Below are positions 57,895 to 64,000 of a stretch of DNA of 64,000 bases, piece after piece (positions within the stretch are counted from its first letter, which is position 1; each line of letters opens with the position of its first letter). Origin of the DNA: Flavipsychrobacter stenotrophus. GTDB lineage: Bacteria; Bacteroidota; Bacteroidia; Chitinophagales; Chitinophagaceae. A program made the position numbers and the translations under genes. The stretch spans positions 186,001-250,000 of the forward strand of contig NZ_PPSL01000002.1 of assembly GCF_002954265.1 (NCBI RefSeq), written 5' to 3'. Under the pieces are notes generated by a model. The model had not been told where the DNA came from. It was given only the letters and a program-made list of their open reading frames with translations, and did not search any database.

Positions 57895-58362
57895 TTAAGA
57901 CAGTAATTTCTGGCGAACGAGGAATTCAAGTTGTTCGTTACTGATGGTGAGTTTGCTGTTCATTTCCTTTTCATCTACCTTTTCCCTGAAAACCTCATAT
58001 GCTTTGGTGATGGTCATATCTAATTCTTCTTCATTCCAGGGTTTGGTGAGGTAGTGGAATATCTTGCCTTTGTTTACCGCGTCTATAACAGCATTCATGT
58101 CGGCATAGCCGGTAAGTAATATTCTTGTAGGTAGCGGAAACTCGTCAATAATATTTTCCAGAAACTCAACTCCAGTCATATTAGGCATTCGCTGATCGGT
58201 AATGATAACATTAACGTCATTATTCTTTAACACCTTTATAGCCTCTTCTCCGCTTATGGCAGTCAACACTTTATACTTTATCCTAAAGACAGCTTTGAAA
58301 GAAACAAGATTGTTTTCCTCGTCGTCAACATATAAGACCACTATCTTGTTGGGCTTGGACAT
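57895..58362 (-). CDS. Response regulator, single receiver domain with coiled tail
   Basis: This 155-aa two-component receiver has the acidic pair D13/D14 (YVDDEENN), phospho-acceptor D56 (VIITDQRMP), T84 and K107 (YLTKPW), all conserved. A helical tail (about 120-155) replaces an output domain, so it probably acts through protein contacts. Its start region, KIVVLYVDDEENNL and FKAVFR, closely resembles the partial receiver at 63844-64000 (KIKVLYIDDEQNNL and FKATFR), so the two are sister genes flanking the enzyme/kinase cluster. It diverges from the ThiF-nitroreductase gene, with 122 bp between them. Confidence 0.9.
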   Translation of the reverse strand: MSKPNKIVVLYVDDEENNLVSFKAVFRIKYKVLTAISGEEAIKVLKNNDVNVIITDQRMPNMTGVEFLENIIDEFPLPTRILLTGYADMNAVIDAVNKGKIFHYLTKPWNEEELDMTITKAYEVFREKVDEKEMNSKLTISNEQLEFLVRQKLLS

Positions 58363-58484
58363 ATATTATTATAATTTTACTAAGATGTAACTCTACGCAA
58401 GATAATAAAATAATTGGAAATTACCTCGGTCTCATTGTATATTTATGTCCAAAACAAATTACAGTTTAAACAAACAGTTCTGCT

Positions 58485-60785
58485 ATGTTAACAGAAAGAT
58501 TACAATTTACAAAAAATCTAAATGAGTTGTATGTACCCTCATTATTCAGGCTTGCGGATAGTGGCGATCTGAAAGCATTTAATGAGCTACTTGCCAACGA
58601 TAGCATAATGGTCTTTGATGAAATATATGACCAATTAAGAGAACTGATCAAAAGCCGCAATCCAAAACAAAAACTTACCGCAGCCGACTATGAACTGCGC
58701 ATAGCCCAACACATTGGCAGCACTCCTATCACTGAATATGGCGTATGGGCGTACTACCCATGGTCTCAAAGATTGGTGCATATCCTTGATAAAGAAGAAT
58801 TTATAGAGCTACGCACATCGGCCAACAAAAATAAAATAACAATAGCTGAGCGCGAACGCCTGGCCACAAAGAAGGTAGGTGTTATAGGTCTGTCGGTAGG
58901 ACAGTCGGTATCCATGACGCTGGCGCTGGAAAGAGGATGCGGAGAACTACGTATTGCGGACTTTGACAGGCTGGAGCTGAACAACATGAACCGCATACGC
59001 ACAGGTGTACATAACCTGGGATTATTAAAGACCTATGCAGTTGCAAGGGAAATAGCAGAACTGGACCCCTACTTTAAAGTGGTCTGTTTTTCTGAAGGCA
59101 TTACCGAAGCGAATATCCATCAGTTCTTTACCGAAAACGGGAAATTAGACCTCGTTATAGACGAATGTGACGGTGTTAACATAAAAATATTGTGCAGAAT
59201 AAAGGCCCGCGAACTGAATGTGCCGGTATTGATGGAGGCCAGCGACCGTGGAACTCTGGATGTAGAACGATTTGACCTGGAACCCGACAGACCAATCATA
59301 CACGGTTGGTTAGAAGGGCTAACCCTGGATTTTGAGATCATTAATAAGCTCAAAACGGCCGAAGAAAAGCTACCATACATGCTACCTATTTCAGGATTAG
59401 ACACGCTGTCGCCAAGAATGAAGGCTTCAATGGTGGAAATTGAGCAGACCATCACCACCTGGCCTCAACTGGCTACTGCGGTAACACTTGGCGGAGCACT
59501 CACAGCCGATACGTGTCGCAGAATATTCCTCGACCAATTCACCAATTCGGGCAGATACTTTATAGACCTGGAAGAGCTGATACCGGATACCCGCGAGAAG
59601 CCTGTGATCAACTACCACATTGAGGAACAGCCACTTACAGTTGACTACATGAATGAATTGGCGGCAGAAGCCACTGCTGGCATGCAACTACACAGCGAGT
59701 TGCCGGAACGGGCAGTACTTATGGAATTGCTGGAAGCAGCCAGACAAGCGCCGTCGGCAGGCAATAACCAGCCATGGAAGTGGCACCTCACCAATTCCTG
59801 CCTTTTCCTGTTTCACGACAGGATACGCTCAGTAACCTTTGGCGACTTTGAAGATATAGCATCTTATGTAGCTTTGGGAGCTGCGGTGGAGAACCTGGAA
59901 CTGGCAGCACACAAACACCACATAGGGCTCGACATTACACCATTTCCTATTGACAGTAAAAAATTGATAGCCGTTATCCGCTTCAGTAAAGAGGCAACAG
60001 CGAACGGGCTTTATATGCCTGATGAACTGGTAAAGGAAATAGGCAATAGATTTACAAACCGTAATCTGGGGCCGAGGGTGGCACTTGAAGCAGACGCGAT
60101 AACACAGCTGCGGGCAGCGGTGGCATCTATTCCCGGTGCAGAACTATTGCTAAAAGAAGATGAAGCCGATATGGCCGAGCTGGCCGACATTATGAGCTCT
60201 TCTGAAAGGCTGCGTATGCTGCACGCCGAGGGGCACTATGAGTTTTATAACAAGGAAGTGAGGTGGGACGACGAACATAGCCGCACCACCGCAGATGGCA
60301 TTGACATAGGTACACTGGATGTAAAACCGTCTGAAGTAGTAGGTCTGAAACTGGTAAAAGACCCGAGGGTGGTAGCGCTGCTGGCCGAATGGAGAGGCGG
60401 CAAAGGCCTGGAAAGTATAGCCAGAAAAGCGATTGCCAGCGCATCGGGTATAGGTCTTATAGTGATGCCGAAATATAGTCCGCTCGACTACTTCATGGGT
60501 GGTAGGGCTGTAGAGCGTATGTGGTTGATGGCATCTAAACTGAATGTCTCCATGCAGCCTATGCTGGCCGCACCGCTGCACTTTGCACGGCTCAACCATG
60601 GAAATGGAGAAGGACTGCCGGACTTTATGAAAGAAGAATTTACTGAACTTTATAAAAGGTTTGAAAGAGTATTCCCCGGCCTGGAAGGAAAGGGCGAGAT
60701 ATTCTTGTTTCGTTTATGTATAGCTAAAACGCCATCAGTTAAATCGTATCGCTTACCTTTAGTAAATATATTAACGGAGTCGTAA
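58485..60785 (+). CDS. ThiF/E1-like and nitroreductase fusion protein (Rv1355c family)
   Basis: This 766-aa fusion has an N-terminal helical region (1-120), an E1/ThiF-type adenylation domain (about 125-345) and a nitroreductase-like flavin domain (about 405-760). ThiF marks are GLSVGQ (135-140, a variant nucleotide loop), D159/D161 (ADFD), NNMNR (166-170), K182 and D226/D229. The flavin site motif is ARQAPSAGNNQPW (419-431). The layout matches the Rv1355c family named from Mycobacterium tuberculosis. ThiF domains activate carboxylates as adenylates; nitroreductases do flavin redox steps. Together they suggest small-molecule modification. The substrate is unknown. The stop codon abuts the next ATG (TAAATG), so the two products likely act together. 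Confidence 0.87.
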   Translation: MLTERLQFTKNLNELYVPSLFRLADSGDLKAFNELLANDSIMVFDEIYDQLRELIKSRNPKQKLTAADYELRIAQHIGSTPITEYGVWAYYPWSQRLVHILDKEEFIELRTSANKNKITIAERERLATKKVGVIGLSVGQSVSMTLALERGCGELRIADFDRLELNNMNRIRTGVHNLGLLKTYAVAREIAELDPYFKVVCFSEGITEANIHQFFTENGKLDLVIDECDGVNIKILCRIKARELNVPVLMEASDRGTLDVERFDLEPDRPIIHGWLEGLTLDFEIINKLKTAEEKLPYMLPISGLDTLSPRMKASMVEIEQTITTWPQLATAVTLGGALTADTCRRIFLDQFTNSGRYFIDLEELIPDTREKPVINYHIEEQPLTVDYMNELAAEATAGMQLHSELPERAVLMELLEAARQAPSAGNNQPWKWHLTNSCLFLFHDRIRSVTFGDFEDIASYVALGAAVENLELAAHKHHIGLDITPFPIDSKKLIAVIRFSKEATANGLYMPDELVKEIGNRFTNRNLGPRVALEADAITQLRAAVASIPGAELLLKEDEADMAELADIMSSSERLRMLHAEGHYEFYNKEVRWDDEHSRTTADGIDIGTLDVKPSEVVGLKLVKDPRVVALLAEWRGGKGLESIARKAIASASGIGLIVMPKYSPLDYFMGGRAVERMWLMASKLNVSMQPMLAAPLHFARLNHGNGEGLPDFMKEEFTELYKRFERVFPGLEGKGEIFLFRLCIAKTPSVKSYRLPLVNILTES

Positions 60786-61487
60786 ATGGGTGAATTAATA
60801 AGAATACGAGCATTCCGGGCAATTGATGACGAACCTGCGTGCAATTTGTATGCAAAGGAGCATATGGACGTGCTGAAGATATTTGGCATAACCAAGATCA
60901 CCACGGCCAACAATAGCTGGATAAAGAACCCTAATGTCTACGTAATAATGGCAGAGCGGGTATCTGATAACCAACCCGTTGGTGGTGCACGTGTGCATTT
61001 ATACCATGAAGACTATCCATTGCCCATGGATGACGCTGTTAAAGACTTTGACCCATCAGTAAAAGAATTATTGGCCCGCCACGCCCGCAGTGGAGGAACA
61101 GGTGAAATATGCGGGTTATGGAATTCGCGCGATGTGGCCGGTTGGGGTATCGGCACCATGTTCCTGTCACGGGCCGGCGTATCCCTGTGCACTCAGTTGC
61201 CCATGCAAACTATGCACGTGTTGTGTGCAGAACACACTATTGGCATTACGCTGGAAAAAGGATTTGTTATTGAAAAAGAACTAGGCAACAGCGGAACCTT
61301 CTACTACCCTAAAGAAGGACTTGTTGCCACCGCCGCAGTGATCAATGATGTGCGCACGCTGGCAGACGCTAATGAGGTAGACCGGAATATAATAATGAGC
61401 CTTCGGGAAAACCCGTTGCAGACGAGGGAAGAAACCAACAACGAACATAAAATTAAGATCGAATATCAGCTTCGCTTAAATTTATAA
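60786..61487 (+). CDS. GNAT-like acyltransferase, possibly an N-acyl amino acid synthase
   Basis: This 233-aa protein shows a GNAT-like core: GGARVHLYHED (67-76, strand 4), RDVAGWGIGTMF (115-126, acyl-CoA/ACP loop) and a C-terminal ITLEKGFVIEKEL segment. The overall pattern resembles FeeM-type N-acyl amino acid synthases and autoinducer synthases, which join a fatty acyl group to an amino compound. The gene starts directly after the stop of the ThiF-nitroreductase gene, with no gap, and is followed 40 bp later by a receptor kinase. It may make the signal that the kinase senses, but this is inference. Plain N-acetylation is the main alternative. Confidence 0.65.
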   Translation: MGELIRIRAFRAIDDEPACNLYAKEHMDVLKIFGITKITTANNSWIKNPNVYVIMAERVSDNQPVGGARVHLYHEDYPLPMDDAVKDFDPSVKELLARHARSGGTGEICGLWNSRDVAGWGIGTMFLSRAGVSLCTQLPMQTMHVLCAEHTIGITLEKGFVIEKELGNSGTFYYPKEGLVATAAVINDVRTLADANEVDRNIIMSLRENPLQTREETNNEHKIKIEYQLRLNL

Positions 61488-61527
61488 AATTAATATCGTA
61501 CTATTATTCTTTCTGACTTAAAGACAT

Positions 61528-63675
61528 ATGAAAACAATTTATTCTTTAGTTGTTTTTGCGGTTTCGTTATTTGTTTACAGTGCTGCCAAAGGCCAGGCGT
61601 TTGTTTATACCGACTCCAACCAGGTAAACATAGTAGGTAAATATGTGGGTGTATTTGAAGACCCGACCAACCAACTAACATTTGACGAGGTAAGACTGGC
61701 TGATAAATTCAAGCCGTCGGAAAAGGAAGTCCCCAATTTCGGCATCACGAACTCTACTTACTGGCTAAAACTGGAAGTAGAAAATAAAACTACCGACCCG
61801 CGCCTTCTGCTTACGTTGTCCTATCCTCAACTGGATGAGGTTGACTTCTTCAAACCAGACAGCAACGGCGCATATCGCGAAATTAAGAGCGGCGAGCAAG
61901 TAGAGATAAGCAAAAGAATTTATTCCAGCCAGAATTTCATTTTCAATCTTAATCTTCCGCAGCAGGTAAAAAAGATCTACTACTTTAAGATAAAGAGCAG
62001 CGAGCAGATATTAGTACCCATAAGCCTGGGAGCTACCAATGTGGTCTTTAATGCCATCAATAATCAGGACAACCTGACCAGCATCTATCTCGGTATCATC
62101 TTTGTGATGATCTTTTACAACATCTTCGTTTACCTGAGTGTAAAAGATAAAAGCTACCTCTATTATGTATTCTACATTCTGTTTGTAGGACTTACGCAGA
62201 TAGGCTTCCAGGGTTATAGCTACCGGTACTTCTGGCCAACATTACCTGCACTTGCCAATAACAGCGTGATACTTTTCCCTGCGTTAACGGGTATTACCGC
62301 AATAGAATTTTTTAAGAAGTTTCTATATGCCGACGGAGCACCTAAAAAGGTAAACATCATCCTCAACCTGCTTAATGTTTTTTACCTGGTTAACTGTGTG
62401 CTAAGCCTGGCCGGGCTGCATCAATTAAGCCAGCAATTGTTGCAACCCAATGCTATGATCGCCTCGTTCATCATACTGGGCTTGTCTATCAATGCGATCA
62501 GAAAAGGCAGCAGGCCGGCTATATTTTTCCTGGTGGCGTGGGTTACCTTCCTGATGGGTATTATCGTCTTCATTCTTAAAGACGTAGGTGTATTACCTTA
62601 TAATAACTTCACCAATTACATACTGCAGATCGGGTCGGCAATTGAAGTAGTGGTGCTATCGTTTGCCCTGGCAGATAAGATAAACATTTACAGAAAGGAG
62701 AAAGAAATATCTCAGGCAGCTACTTTGAGTGCGTTGAAAGAAAATGAAAAGATCATCACCGAGCAAAACATAGTGCTGGAAAAAAGGGTGGACGAAAGAA
62801 CACTTGAATTGAACCTGTCTAACAAGGAACTGAACAAGGCGATGACCGAACTGAAGGAAGCAGAGACGCAATTGGTGGAATCTGAGAAAATGGCGTCTTT
62901 AGGTCAGTTGACGGCAGGGATAGCCCATGAGATCAACAACCCCATAAACTTTGTAACTTCTAATGTAAAACCACTGAACAGGGATGTACGCATGCTGCTG
63001 GAAACGGTAGATGTACTGGAAAAAATTGCCATTGAAAACATACCGGTGGCCGAAAAACAAAAACAAATAGCCGAATATAAGGAAGAGATAGATTACGATT
63101 ACCTGAAGGTAGAGATAGATCAATTGCTCAGCGGAATAGGAGAAGGTGCATCAAGGACTGCCGAGATAGTAAAAGGCCTGCGTATCTTCTCAAGGCTTGA
63201 TGAGGATGACCTCAAAAAAGCAGATATCAATGAAGGCCTGGAGTCTACCCTTATTATAGCAAATAACCTGCTGAATAATGTGATAAAGGTTGATAAGCAC
63301 TACAGCAACATCCCATTGATAGAATGCTATCCCGGCAAGCTTAATCAGGTGTTTCTCAATATGATATCCAACGCAGTTTATGCAATTAAGAAAAAATATG
63401 CCGATAAAGATGGTGGTATTTTGGGGATAAAAACGTATATTGATGACAACCACCTGGCCATATCTATTTCAGACAATGGAACAGGCATGGATGAACAGAC
63501 CAAAAAGAAATTGTTTGAACCATTTTTTACTACAAAAGATGTAGGAGAAGGTACCGGTTTAGGACTTTCGATCGCCTACAATACTATTGTAAAACACAAC
63601 GGATCGGTACAGATAAATTCGGAATTGGGACAGGGGACCGAATTTATTATTAAATTACCTTTGATACAGAAGTGA
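61528..63675 (+). CDS. 7TMR-DISM sensor histidine kinase
   Basis: This 715-aa receptor kinase has a signal peptide (about 1-23), an extracytoplasmic 7TMR-DISMED2-like beta-sandwich (about 40-165), and seven membrane segments (about 180-390: YLGIIFVMIFYNIFVYLSV; YLYYVFYILFVGLTQIGF). A coiled coil (about 395-460) leads to the kinase: H-box H467 (GIAHEINNPINF), N-box (FLNMISNAVYAI), G1 (SDNGTGMD), F-box (LFEPFFTTKD) and G2 (GTGLGLSIAYN). All catalytic motifs are intact. The extracellular domain probably binds a small ligand. It sits between two enzyme genes and a receiver gene, all on the same strand. Confidence 0.92.
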   Translation: MKTIYSLVVFAVSLFVYSAAKGQAFVYTDSNQVNIVGKYVGVFEDPTNQLTFDEVRLADKFKPSEKEVPNFGITNSTYWLKLEVENKTTDPRLLLTLSYPQLDEVDFFKPDSNGAYREIKSGEQVEISKRIYSSQNFIFNLNLPQQVKKIYYFKIKSSEQILVPISLGATNVVFNAINNQDNLTSIYLGIIFVMIFYNIFVYLSVKDKSYLYYVFYILFVGLTQIGFQGYSYRYFWPTLPALANNSVILFPALTGITAIEFFKKFLYADGAPKKVNIILNLLNVFYLVNCVLSLAGLHQLSQQLLQPNAMIASFIILGLSINAIRKGSRPAIFFLVAWVTFLMGIIVFILKDVGVLPYNNFTNYILQIGSAIEVVVLSFALADKINIYRKEKEISQAATLSALKENEKIITEQNIVLEKRVDERTLELNLSNKELNKAMTELKEAETQLVESEKMASLGQLTAGIAHEINNPINFVTSNVKPLNRDVRMLLETVDVLEKIAIENIPVAEKQKQIAEYKEEIDYDYLKVEIDQLLSGIGEGASRTAEIVKGLRIFSRLDEDDLKKADINEGLESTLIIANNLLNNVIKVDKHYSNIPLIECYPGKLNQVFLNMISNAVYAIKKKYADKDGGILGIKTYIDDNHLAISISDNGTGMDEQTKKKLFEPFFTTKDVGEGTGLGLSIAYNTIVKHNGSVQINSELGQGTEFIIKLPLIQK

Positions 63676-63732
63676 AATGTTTAAGTAAGCATATACAACC
63701 AACACCGTAAATTACCCACATAACGCATTAAA

Positions 63733-63759
63733 TTGATGATGCGTAAATAACATCATCAA
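63733..63759. promoter_or_regulatory. Inverted repeat between the kinase and receiver genes
   Basis: TTGATGATG (63733-63741) and CATCATCAA (63751-63759) are separated by nine bases. It lies 58 bp past the kinase stop and could be an operator for the second receiver gene. No U tract follows, so a terminator is less likely. Confidence 0.4.
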
Positions 63760-63843
63760 AGAATTGACTTTAGAATAGTTTGACTATTAAAAATAGAACC
63801 CGAATTATTATTTTTTAATTCAAGACAGGATTAAATTAAACCG

Positions 63844-64000
63844 ATGGAAAAAATAAAGGTTCTATATATTGATGATGAACAAAATAACTTGAATGGGTTT
63901 AAAGCCACCTTCAGGTTCGACTATACCATATTCATAGCAGCAACCACTACAAAAGCAAAAGAGTACCTACGTGACCATAACGATATAAAGATCATACTCT
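63844..64000 (+). CDS. Response regulator, partial (cut by the window end)
   Basis: Only the first 52 residues are present. They match the start of a receiver domain, with the acidic pair in KVLYIDDEQNNL and a FKATFRFDY segment nearly identical in pattern to the receiver at 57895-58362. The phospho-acceptor Asp lies just beyond the window edge. The gene starts 168 bp after the kinase, and it is probably that kinase's partner. Any output domain is unseen. Confidence 0.85.
   Translation, partial: MEKIKVLYIDDEQNNLNGFKATFRFDYTIFIAATTTKAKEYLRDHNDIKIIL

Follow-up and report, generated by a model that had tools for sequence, protein, structure and literature searches.

Where genes for the synthesis of a small molecule adjoin the gene for a membrane-bound histidine kinase, does the kinase sense the product of its neighbors? 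This question is raised by the end of a stretch of 64,000 nucleotides from Flavipsychrobacter stenotrophus (RefSeq assembly GCF_002954265.1, contig NZ_PPSL01000002.1, positions 186,001 to 250,000), the whole of which we call the window. Three genes on its plus strand form the core of the locus. They encode a ThiF-nitroreductase of the TrzS/OxzB type (58485..60785, 766 aa), a putative GNAT-type N-acyltransferase (60786..61487, 233 aa) that begins at the first base after the stop codon of its neighbor (TAAATG), and a histidine kinase of the 7TMR-DISM class (61528..63675, 715 aa). We refer to the 233-residue protein and its relatives as “TrzA”, a name that marks them as TrzA-like. In this report, we find that the sensor half of the kinase is exchanged together with a variable tailoring enzyme while the rest of the locus remains constant. 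We therefore consider it likely that this is a self-contained small-molecule signaling locus, whose signal is both made by the cell and sensed by its own membrane kinase, with exchanges of enzyme and sensor giving rise to dialects. An earlier, sequence-only reading had offered two possibilities, namely a molecule made by the enzymes and sensed by the kinase, or regulators that govern how much of it is made; the comparative data support this proposal and favor its first form.

The chemistry of the enzyme half can be predicted from known relatives. The 766-residue protein matches the NCBIfam model NF005901 (the Rv1355c family) with 789 bits over residues 12-763, against a cut-off of 476, and matches Pfam ThiF (3e-15) and Nitroreductase (3e-8); the gene fusion recognized in the sequence-only reading is thereby confirmed. 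By these matches, the protein belongs to the TrzS/OxzB oxazolone family, and known chemistry is its predicted activity here. It comprises a ThiF-like cyclase (residues ~1-370) and a flavin oxidase of the nitroreductase family (residues ~395-766). An E-C-D motif (227-229 in the window’s protein) is invariant in nine full-length sequences; for TrzS of M. smegmatis, an ATP-site Asp and FMN-site residues have been named (D217, R540, Q651, in the numbering of that protein). Rv1355c is TrzS. Its partner TrzA acylates tryptophan, and TrzS performs an ATP-driven cyclization followed by an O2-dependent desaturation, yielding an N-acyl oxazolone (PMC12856293, PMC10404671; these and all other papers are cited for the excerpts available). 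OxzAB and TyzACB follow an equivalent route from tyrosine or phenylalanine (PMC12856293, PMC10404671; OxzAB as cited there). The physiological role of the oxazolones is, according to the authors, a major unresolved question, and signaling has been raised as a possibility because these compounds resemble known signals and because genes of cyclic di-GMP (c-di-GMP) metabolism lie near trzAS in M. tuberculosis (PMC12856293). The same work notes that oxazolones do not survive acid or methanol.

Plasmids of other bacteria carry variations on this enzyme pair (L and G numbers denote the loci and genomes compared). On three Rhodococcus plasmids (L138, L216, L219), GGDEF genes adjoin TrzS and its divergent neighbor, echoing trzAS of M. 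tuberculosis; the segments compared from three mycobacterial plasmids showed no c-di-GMP genes near TrzS. A plasmid of Nitratidesulfovibrio vulgaris (L218 2227-5196) encodes a single protein of 989 residues that matches FeeM (5e-44), ThiF (3e-49) and nitroreductase (2e-8). This fusion thus ties N-acyl amino acid synthesis to both TrzS activities, and the chain is presumptively the whole oxazolone pathway in one protein. On a Streptomyces plasmid (L139 4914-6712), a ThiF-only homolog of the front half of TrzS is followed by a GNAT gene.

We propose that TrzA is the N-acyl amino acid synthase of the locus, given that it adjoins TrzS as in OxzAB and TrzAS, that the order of elements in its structural model is by eye compatible with GNAT, and that it has weak matches to GNAT and FeeM profiles. 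The AlphaFold model (predicted local distance difference test, pLDDT, 91.1; predicted template-modeling score, pTM, 0.89) has an order of alpha and beta elements that fits GNAT by eye, and two of 34 aligned relatives match the GNAT model Acetyltransf_1 at E<=0.01. The earlier label “FeeM-like” is weak, and membership in FeeM was rejected at the level of sequence: the window’s TrzA reaches 13.5 bits with the Pfam model (PF21926; E 0.061) against a cut-off of 27, and none of the 34 relatives matches at E<=0.01. When applied to 59 related genomes, the FeeM model found matches in four, with one above the cut-off and none at the TrzA site; it also matched two of 14 control genomes. An hhalign comparison with the Rhodococcus neighbor of TrzS gave E 9e-4 over 173 columns with a probability of just 23.5, a similarity that can be called only remote. 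The TrzA profile directly matched neither the Streptomyces GNAT protein nor the FeeM domain of the Nitratidesulfovibrio chain, and it had no significant match among the sequences of solved structures (best E 0.71).

The third core gene has the domain architecture of a sensor kinase. Pfam identifies 7TMR-DISMED2 (6e-38; ~61636-62028), 7TMR-DISM_7TM (2e-50; ~62074-62679) and HATPase_c (5e-23), the last lying within a coil/HisKA/HATPase region at ~62713-63672. The match to HisKA falls below the cut-off (8e-5, 23 bits against 26.9), and the H box is present; with this sub-threshold match, all four domains of a 7TMR-DISM histidine kinase are found. On visual inspection, the translation shows H, N, G1 and G2 boxes, in agreement with the intact catalytic motifs described earlier, and the gene contents and motifs from position 57895 onward are otherwise also as that description had them by gene coordinates and Pfam.

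The association of TrzA with the kinase is conserved well beyond the window. Relatives of TrzA are present in 26 of 99 relatives and, in a phylum-wide sample of 395 genomes, in 13 (E<=1e-10). A single peptide pattern yielded 353 confirmed places in GTDB genomes, the best 80 of which were used; the nearest named record among these 80 is a metagenome-assembled genome (MAG) of Flavipsychrobacter stenotrophus, with 97% identity. In all, 117 annotated loci with TrzA were gathered; removal of seven duplicates left 110, with one genome still present twice (L035, L108), and the later removal of L035 left 109. In every locus with more than 3.5 kb of downstream sequence (103/103, one genome counted twice), spread over several Bacteroidota families, the kinase gene lies within two genes of TrzA, and the linkage of synthesis genes to a membrane kinase is thus stable, as would be expected of a quorum-sensing-type locus. 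Because TrzA itself was the query, this figure is valid for the present clade of TrzA rather than for every acyltransferase. Among loci with sufficient room, and with the same double count, a gene for a REC-HisKA-HATPase protein (REC-HK) is found in 92 of 98, a second gene encoding only a receiver (REC) domain in 64 of 95, and a homolog of RRup, the REC-only response regulator encoded upstream, in the vicinity in 81 of 86.

Further samples point the same way. In all 11 newly fetched genomes of the phylum sample, which span the window’s family and four others and include one (G201) outside its class, the kinase is encoded next to TrzA or one gene away. The sensor half has a close counterpart (E<1e-45) in all 20 TrzA-positive genomes among the 59 relatives, versus two of the 39 that are TrzA-negative (four of 39 at the looser cut-off of E<=1e-15). 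The sensor relatives found without TrzA (L194-L200) are diverged kinases with no cluster in their fetched surroundings. NF005901 has matches in 12 of 390 Bacteroidota genomes, 11 of which are TrzA-positive; in the twelfth (G105), the match is a weak one to the nitroreductase end. Such recurrence throughout the phylum puts the arrangement far outside what chance would give. The sequence-only reading had named the lack of a conserved neighborhood beyond close relatives as one observation that would refute it, and the TrzA-kinase pair proves to be present in every locus with enough sequence.

While synthase, kinase and receivers form the constant part of the cluster, the enzyme accompanying TrzA does not. 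Among the 110 loci, this tailoring enzyme is a ThiF-nitroreductase (ThiF-NTR) in 56, ThiF alone in 27, a soluble S-adenosylmethionine-dependent methyltransferase (MT) in 13, an oxidase of the FAD_binding_4 family in six, an ICMT-type membrane methyltransferase in two and a fragment in two; four loci have none, two of these being cut by contig ends. Its gene lies either between TrzA and the kinase or upstream of TrzA. Each of these types could plausibly finish an N-acyl amino acid, which would be its presumed substrate here. The four-gene cluster originally described thus exists, but its extent was drawn too small, with REC-HK and a further REC gene reaching beyond the window, and one of its members varies from locus to locus.

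If the product of these enzymes is the ligand of the kinase, the sensor half might be expected to follow the type of tailoring enzyme. Our main set of trees comprised 92 of the 109 loci (including eight of the 13 MT and five of the six oxidase loci) because TrzA, the kinase and REC-HK were all required to be near full length; four loci cut upstream carry no enzyme-type label. The sensor-half tree calls for 12 changes of enzyme type, compared with 22 for the kinase half, 24 for TrzA and 26 for REC-HK. With equal resamples of 120 columns, the 7TM domain required 13.3+-1.5 changes and DISMED2 18.3+-2.0, the coil/DHp region 24.8+-1.3, the ATPase 24.3+-1.5, TrzA 24.3+-1.4 and REC-HK 25.7+-1.2; the sensor tree required 38.1 once its labels had been shuffled. 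Thus, the sensor half follows enzyme type, and the catalytic half of the same protein, TrzA and REC-HK do so far less.

Tests of individual clades agree with these counts. They were made on 91 loci, with L118 omitted here as well as from the distance tests and the wider set described below; its kinase is split into two frames (606 + 123 aa), which reflects either disruption of the gene or misassembly. The eight MT-type sensors form one clade (support 99.7), as do the five oxidase-type sensors (92.6), whereas the corresponding kinase halves are incompatible with either grouping (approximately unbiased, AU, test: p 6e-72 for MT, 6e-5 for oxidase). Because the main set lacks five of the 13 MT loci and one of the six oxidase loci, the test was repeated on a wider set of 99. 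One clade (99.8) then holds the MT sensors of all 13 loci, including five loci with different downstream genes (L068, L069, L082, L124, L133). The six oxidase sensors are split in a quick tree, but a tree constrained to hold them together is likelier (p 0.95). Enzyme type changes 14 times on the sensor tree of this set, 23 on that of the kinase half and 25 on that of TrzA; the gene taken as REC-HK in L100 is unrelated (49.7 bits), which affects REC-HK figures only. A sensor half that co-varies with the signal-making step, joined to a conserved kinase half, is the pattern of ComQXPA; it is found here, and is weak or absent between ThiF and ThiF-NTR.

The exchange can be followed at the level of DNA. 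Two Sphingobacterium loci, one of MT type (L120) and one of ThiF type (L128), are syntenic over 20 kb at 74-80% identity except for short gaps and one block, which begins at the 3' end of TrzA and reaches about codon 346 of the kinase. Identities are 93% for TrzA, 18% for DISMED2 and 29% for the 7TM domain, then 89% for the coil/DHp region, 81% for the ATPase and 88% for REC-HK. Five more pairs (one of which shares L128, such that not all are independent) have breakpoints near codons 333-385. In one pair (L156/L100), the ThiF part can still be aligned and the block covers the nitroreductase and the sensor. Among pairs with alike kinase halves, which are likewise not independent, 7TM identity is below 55% in 29 of 30 pairs of different enzyme type and at or above 55% in 46 of 81 pairs of the same type.

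The same block varies in the window’s own genus, where enzyme type is unchanged. Compared with six more distant species of the genus, the window has identities of 76-92% for RRup, 60-68% for ThiF, 35-42% for the nitroreductase, 37-45% for TrzA, 27-36% for DISMED2 and 36-44% for the 7TM domain, followed by 74-85% for the coil/DHp region, 72-83% for the ATPase, 65-82% for REC-HK, 57-86% for the second REC protein, 60-73% for BioD and, where present, 85-98% for an NtrC-type regulator (over 45% of its length in one case). The block differs little in G010 and G004, the genomes nearest to that of the window, with DISMED2 the most divergent part at 70% and 66%. The nearest relative, G010 (L031), compared with window positions 58485-62295, has a ThiF part that is 100% identical where aligned, a nitroreductase at 87%, TrzA at 97% and DISMED2 at 70%; its two fastest parts thus flank a conserved TrzA. 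The ratio of nonsynonymous to synonymous changes (dN/dS) is 0.00-0.15 where it can be calculated, indicating purifying selection; positive selection was not seen between near species.

Several results weigh against a signal that is made and sensed by the same locus, and physical linkage is the main caveat among them. In 55 of the 92 loci, the order is TrzA-enzyme-kinase, with the enzyme gene touching the sensor half, and recombination of a block could therefore by itself move both. These 55 loci carry the association of labels (7TM 6.1 changes versus ATPase 15.7). In the 35 loci with the order enzyme-TrzA-kinase, which are solely of ThiF and ThiF-NTR types, the sensor has no advantage (7TM 5.0, DISMED2 5.8, ATPase 5.7, TrzA 5.0), and over all 75 ThiF and ThiF-NTR loci the effect is weak (7TM 8.4+-1.3, DISMED2 10.9+-1.6, ATPase 11.3+-1.1, TrzA 10.2+-1.1). 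Moreover, 7TM identity is below 45% in 29 of the 81 same-type pairs with alike kinase halves, and enzyme type is therefore not the sole determinant of the sensor. On the side of output, no gene for a DNA-binding protein is conserved in the cluster across loci. Lastly, the sole ligand of a DISMED2 domain that we met in print is calcium, bound by that of LadS (PMC7695008).

How far does linkage account for the pattern? It may be that enzyme and sensor half merely co-move as neighbors between two conserved recombination sites, with no functional match between them. The concentration of the association in loci where the two touch, and its lack of visibility in the other gene order, are what such hitch-hiking would produce, as is the fact that distances of the nitroreductase and DISMED2 correlate most highly where the two adjoin (0.83). 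Linkage leaves unexplained, however, why breakpoints recur near the boundary of sensor and kinase, inside a gene. The single clade formed by all 13 MT sensors, whatever their downstream genes, also speaks against it. Further, in 24 loci of the order enzyme-TrzA-kinase, ThiF distances still track those of the 7TM domain when REC-HK is taken into account (0.50, reached in 0/500 permutations), compared with 0.29 for TrzA and the 7TM domain. This distance test favors functional coupling; the difference between ThiF and TrzA has intervals that include zero in three of four cases (e.g. -0.02 to 0.41), which counts on the other side. On balance, we regard hitch-hiking as a distinctly improbable account of the co-exchange.

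Gene content, conservation, cassette exchange and the co-segregation of sensor with enzyme are observations, and it is on these that a made-and-sensed signal rests. From them we infer the substrate, the product, its export, its binding as a ligand, the direction of regulation and the output. TrzA would join an acyl group to an amino acid, likely an aromatic one to judge from its family. TrzS would then, in keeping with TrzS/OxzB biochemistry, close the acyl amino acid to an oxazolone at the expense of ATP and desaturate it by means of its flavin domain. The oxazolone, or a product of its hydrolysis, would reach the membrane, where the periplasmic 7TMR-DISMED2 domain and the 7TM half of the kinase could recognize it. 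Kinase activity would in turn be set towards the neighboring REC, REC-HK and REC proteins, which would relay the state. Joint swapping of the tailoring enzyme and the sensor half could thus create separate dialects on a conserved chassis of synthase and relay. By analogy with ComQXPA, such co-exchange is what would be expected of a self-made signal and its receptor. A broader version holds that the phylum has private chemical languages, with one synthase and at least five finishing enzymes, each having a matching 7TMR-DISM sensor half, in cassettes exchanged between strains; we incline only slightly towards it.

Alternatively, the kinase could read a cue from outside the cell, the lipid then being the output of the system (a protective lipid, a surfactant or an antibiotic) rather than its signal. 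The calcium bound by LadS would fit such environmental sensing, and the window’s DISMED2 resembles solved sensor domains by sequence, including that of RetS (2xbz, E 7e-11). Two loci (L049, L051) retain TrzA and the kinase without a tailoring enzyme. N-acyl tyrosines are antimicrobial (PMC12479983), and oxazolones have been linked to stress (PMC12856293). An external cue gives no reason, however, for the tailoring enzyme to swap with the sensor half and not with the receivers, and the receivers are conserved across exchanges, as with REC-HK in L120 and L128. We therefore judge environmental sensing to be unlikely.

A third alternative shares self-sensing with the model of a made-and-sensed signal: the product could be an antibiotic, which the kinase detects in order to switch on protection, in the manner of autoinducing bacteriocins. 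Antimicrobial N-acyl amino acids are indeed known (PMC12479983). Among the 14 commonest other neighbor families, however, none is widespread (the top one is present in 15 of 109 loci; rarer families fall outside this list) and none is immunity-like by eye. Self-resistance thus appears very improbable.

The placement of a small-molecule synthase gene beside that of a multi-pass membrane kinase is familiar from LuxM/LuxN and CqsA/CqsS of Vibrio; these differ from the window in having other synthase families, other sensor domains and no exchangeable tailoring enzyme. The agr system of Staphylococcus has the same plan as ComQXPA of Bacillus, namely a signal-processing enzyme, a membrane kinase and a response regulator. 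Both employ modified-peptide signals and a DNA-binding regulator, whereas the window has a predicted fatty-acyl amino acid route, receivers in which domain scans recognize no DNA-binding domain, and other families of synthesis proteins. RetS and LadS have the DISMED2 and 7TM sensor architecture in common with the window’s kinase but, to our knowledge, are not encoded with a small-molecule synthase. Nor do we know of a dedicated small-molecule autoinducer system in the Bacteroidota, a phylum abundant in soils, waters and guts; a narrow search of the literature gave no paper that combined all of its terms.

The closest likeness in evolutionary pattern is to ComQXPA, which also has a processing enzyme, a response regulator and a kinase with a variable N-terminal half and a conserved cytoplasmic half, and in which cross-communication between pherotypes is impaired (PMC4008528). 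ComQ prenyltransferase, ComX peptide and the DNA-binding regulator ComA were not found in the cluster, whose genes are of other families (no special search was made for short peptide genes). In chemistry, the likeness is to TrzAS, OxzAB and TyzACB of Mycobacteriales and Proteobacteria, which also place an acyltransferase beside ThiF and flavin oxidase parts (fused, except in TyzACB, where each has its own gene); the window has a linked membrane kinase, and none is described for these systems in the available excerpts (PMC12856293, PMC10404671). The NasY clusters for stieleriacines, thalassotalic acids and kyonggic acids likewise combine an N-acyl amino acid synthase with ThiF and nitroreductase proteins, and with a methyltransferase in Stieleria, but the excerpt mentions no kinase; the producers of N-acyl tyrosines named there are Pseudomonadota, Actinomycetota and Planctomycetota, not Bacteroidota (PMC12479983). 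In a literature search that was thin on subscription journals, we found no paper in which a 7TMR-DISM kinase is linked to a synthase of N-acyl amino acids or oxazolones; two papers hold both sets of terms and make no such link in the excerpts available (PMC7695008, PMC8776678).

Thus, of the combination that the sequence-only reading could match to no described signaling system, the new element is the link of an oxazolone-type synthase to a 7TMR-DISM histidine kinase; the enzyme pair had already been published as OxzAB/TrzAS, and the plan of a synthase beside a kinase was known as well. Many bacteria, mycobacteria among them, produce N-acyl oxazolones and N-acyl tyrosines, and the locus bears on the role of the oxazolones. 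If our proposal is correct, it provides a new class of ligand for 7TMR-DISM kinases and a function for N-acyl oxazolones. Further, because genomes record how enzyme and sensor have been exchanged in nature, both this role and signaling in the Bacteroidota become directly testable.

The receivers flank the core as the sequence-only reading had it, with a refinement on the right. On the left, RRup (57895..58362, minus strand, 155 aa; Response_reg 3e-20) is a REC-only response regulator divergent from the operon. Its C-terminal tail, EFLVRQKLLS in the window, is near-invariant: of the 92 tails listed, EFLLRQKLLS itself accounts for 54, and most of the remainder deviate from it by one to three residues. 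This tail may be a docking or output motif. On the right, the REC gene is not a sister of the same kind but encodes the 365-residue REC-HK (plus strand), whose HisKA match is weak (15.9 bits); it occupies 63844..64000 in the window, is cut by the window’s end, and continues to ~64941 in the contig (L002 9844-10941, L002 being the contig stretch that runs past that end). The next gene (L002 10928-11329) encodes the second REC-only protein of 133 residues, and downstream of it are genes for an XRE regulator and for the NtrC-type AAA+ regulator, which has no receiver domain (L002 11573-13389). Among the annotated loci, this NtrC-type gene follows the cluster only in the window’s genus.

A few features of individual loci complete the description. 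A ZIP-like metal transporter is encoded at 10 loci, probably by synteny. In the distant Bacteroidota lineage of G201, the regulator beside the kinase is a REC-PAS-HisKA_3-HATPase protein (L162 3244-4653). G009 (L035/L108) has tandem copies of TrzA with one TrzS and one kinase, possibly a double signal. Finally, a MAG record titled Azovibrio restrictus has a cluster nearly identical to that of a MAG labeled Bacteroides (L070/L072), which is probably due to contamination or mislabeling.

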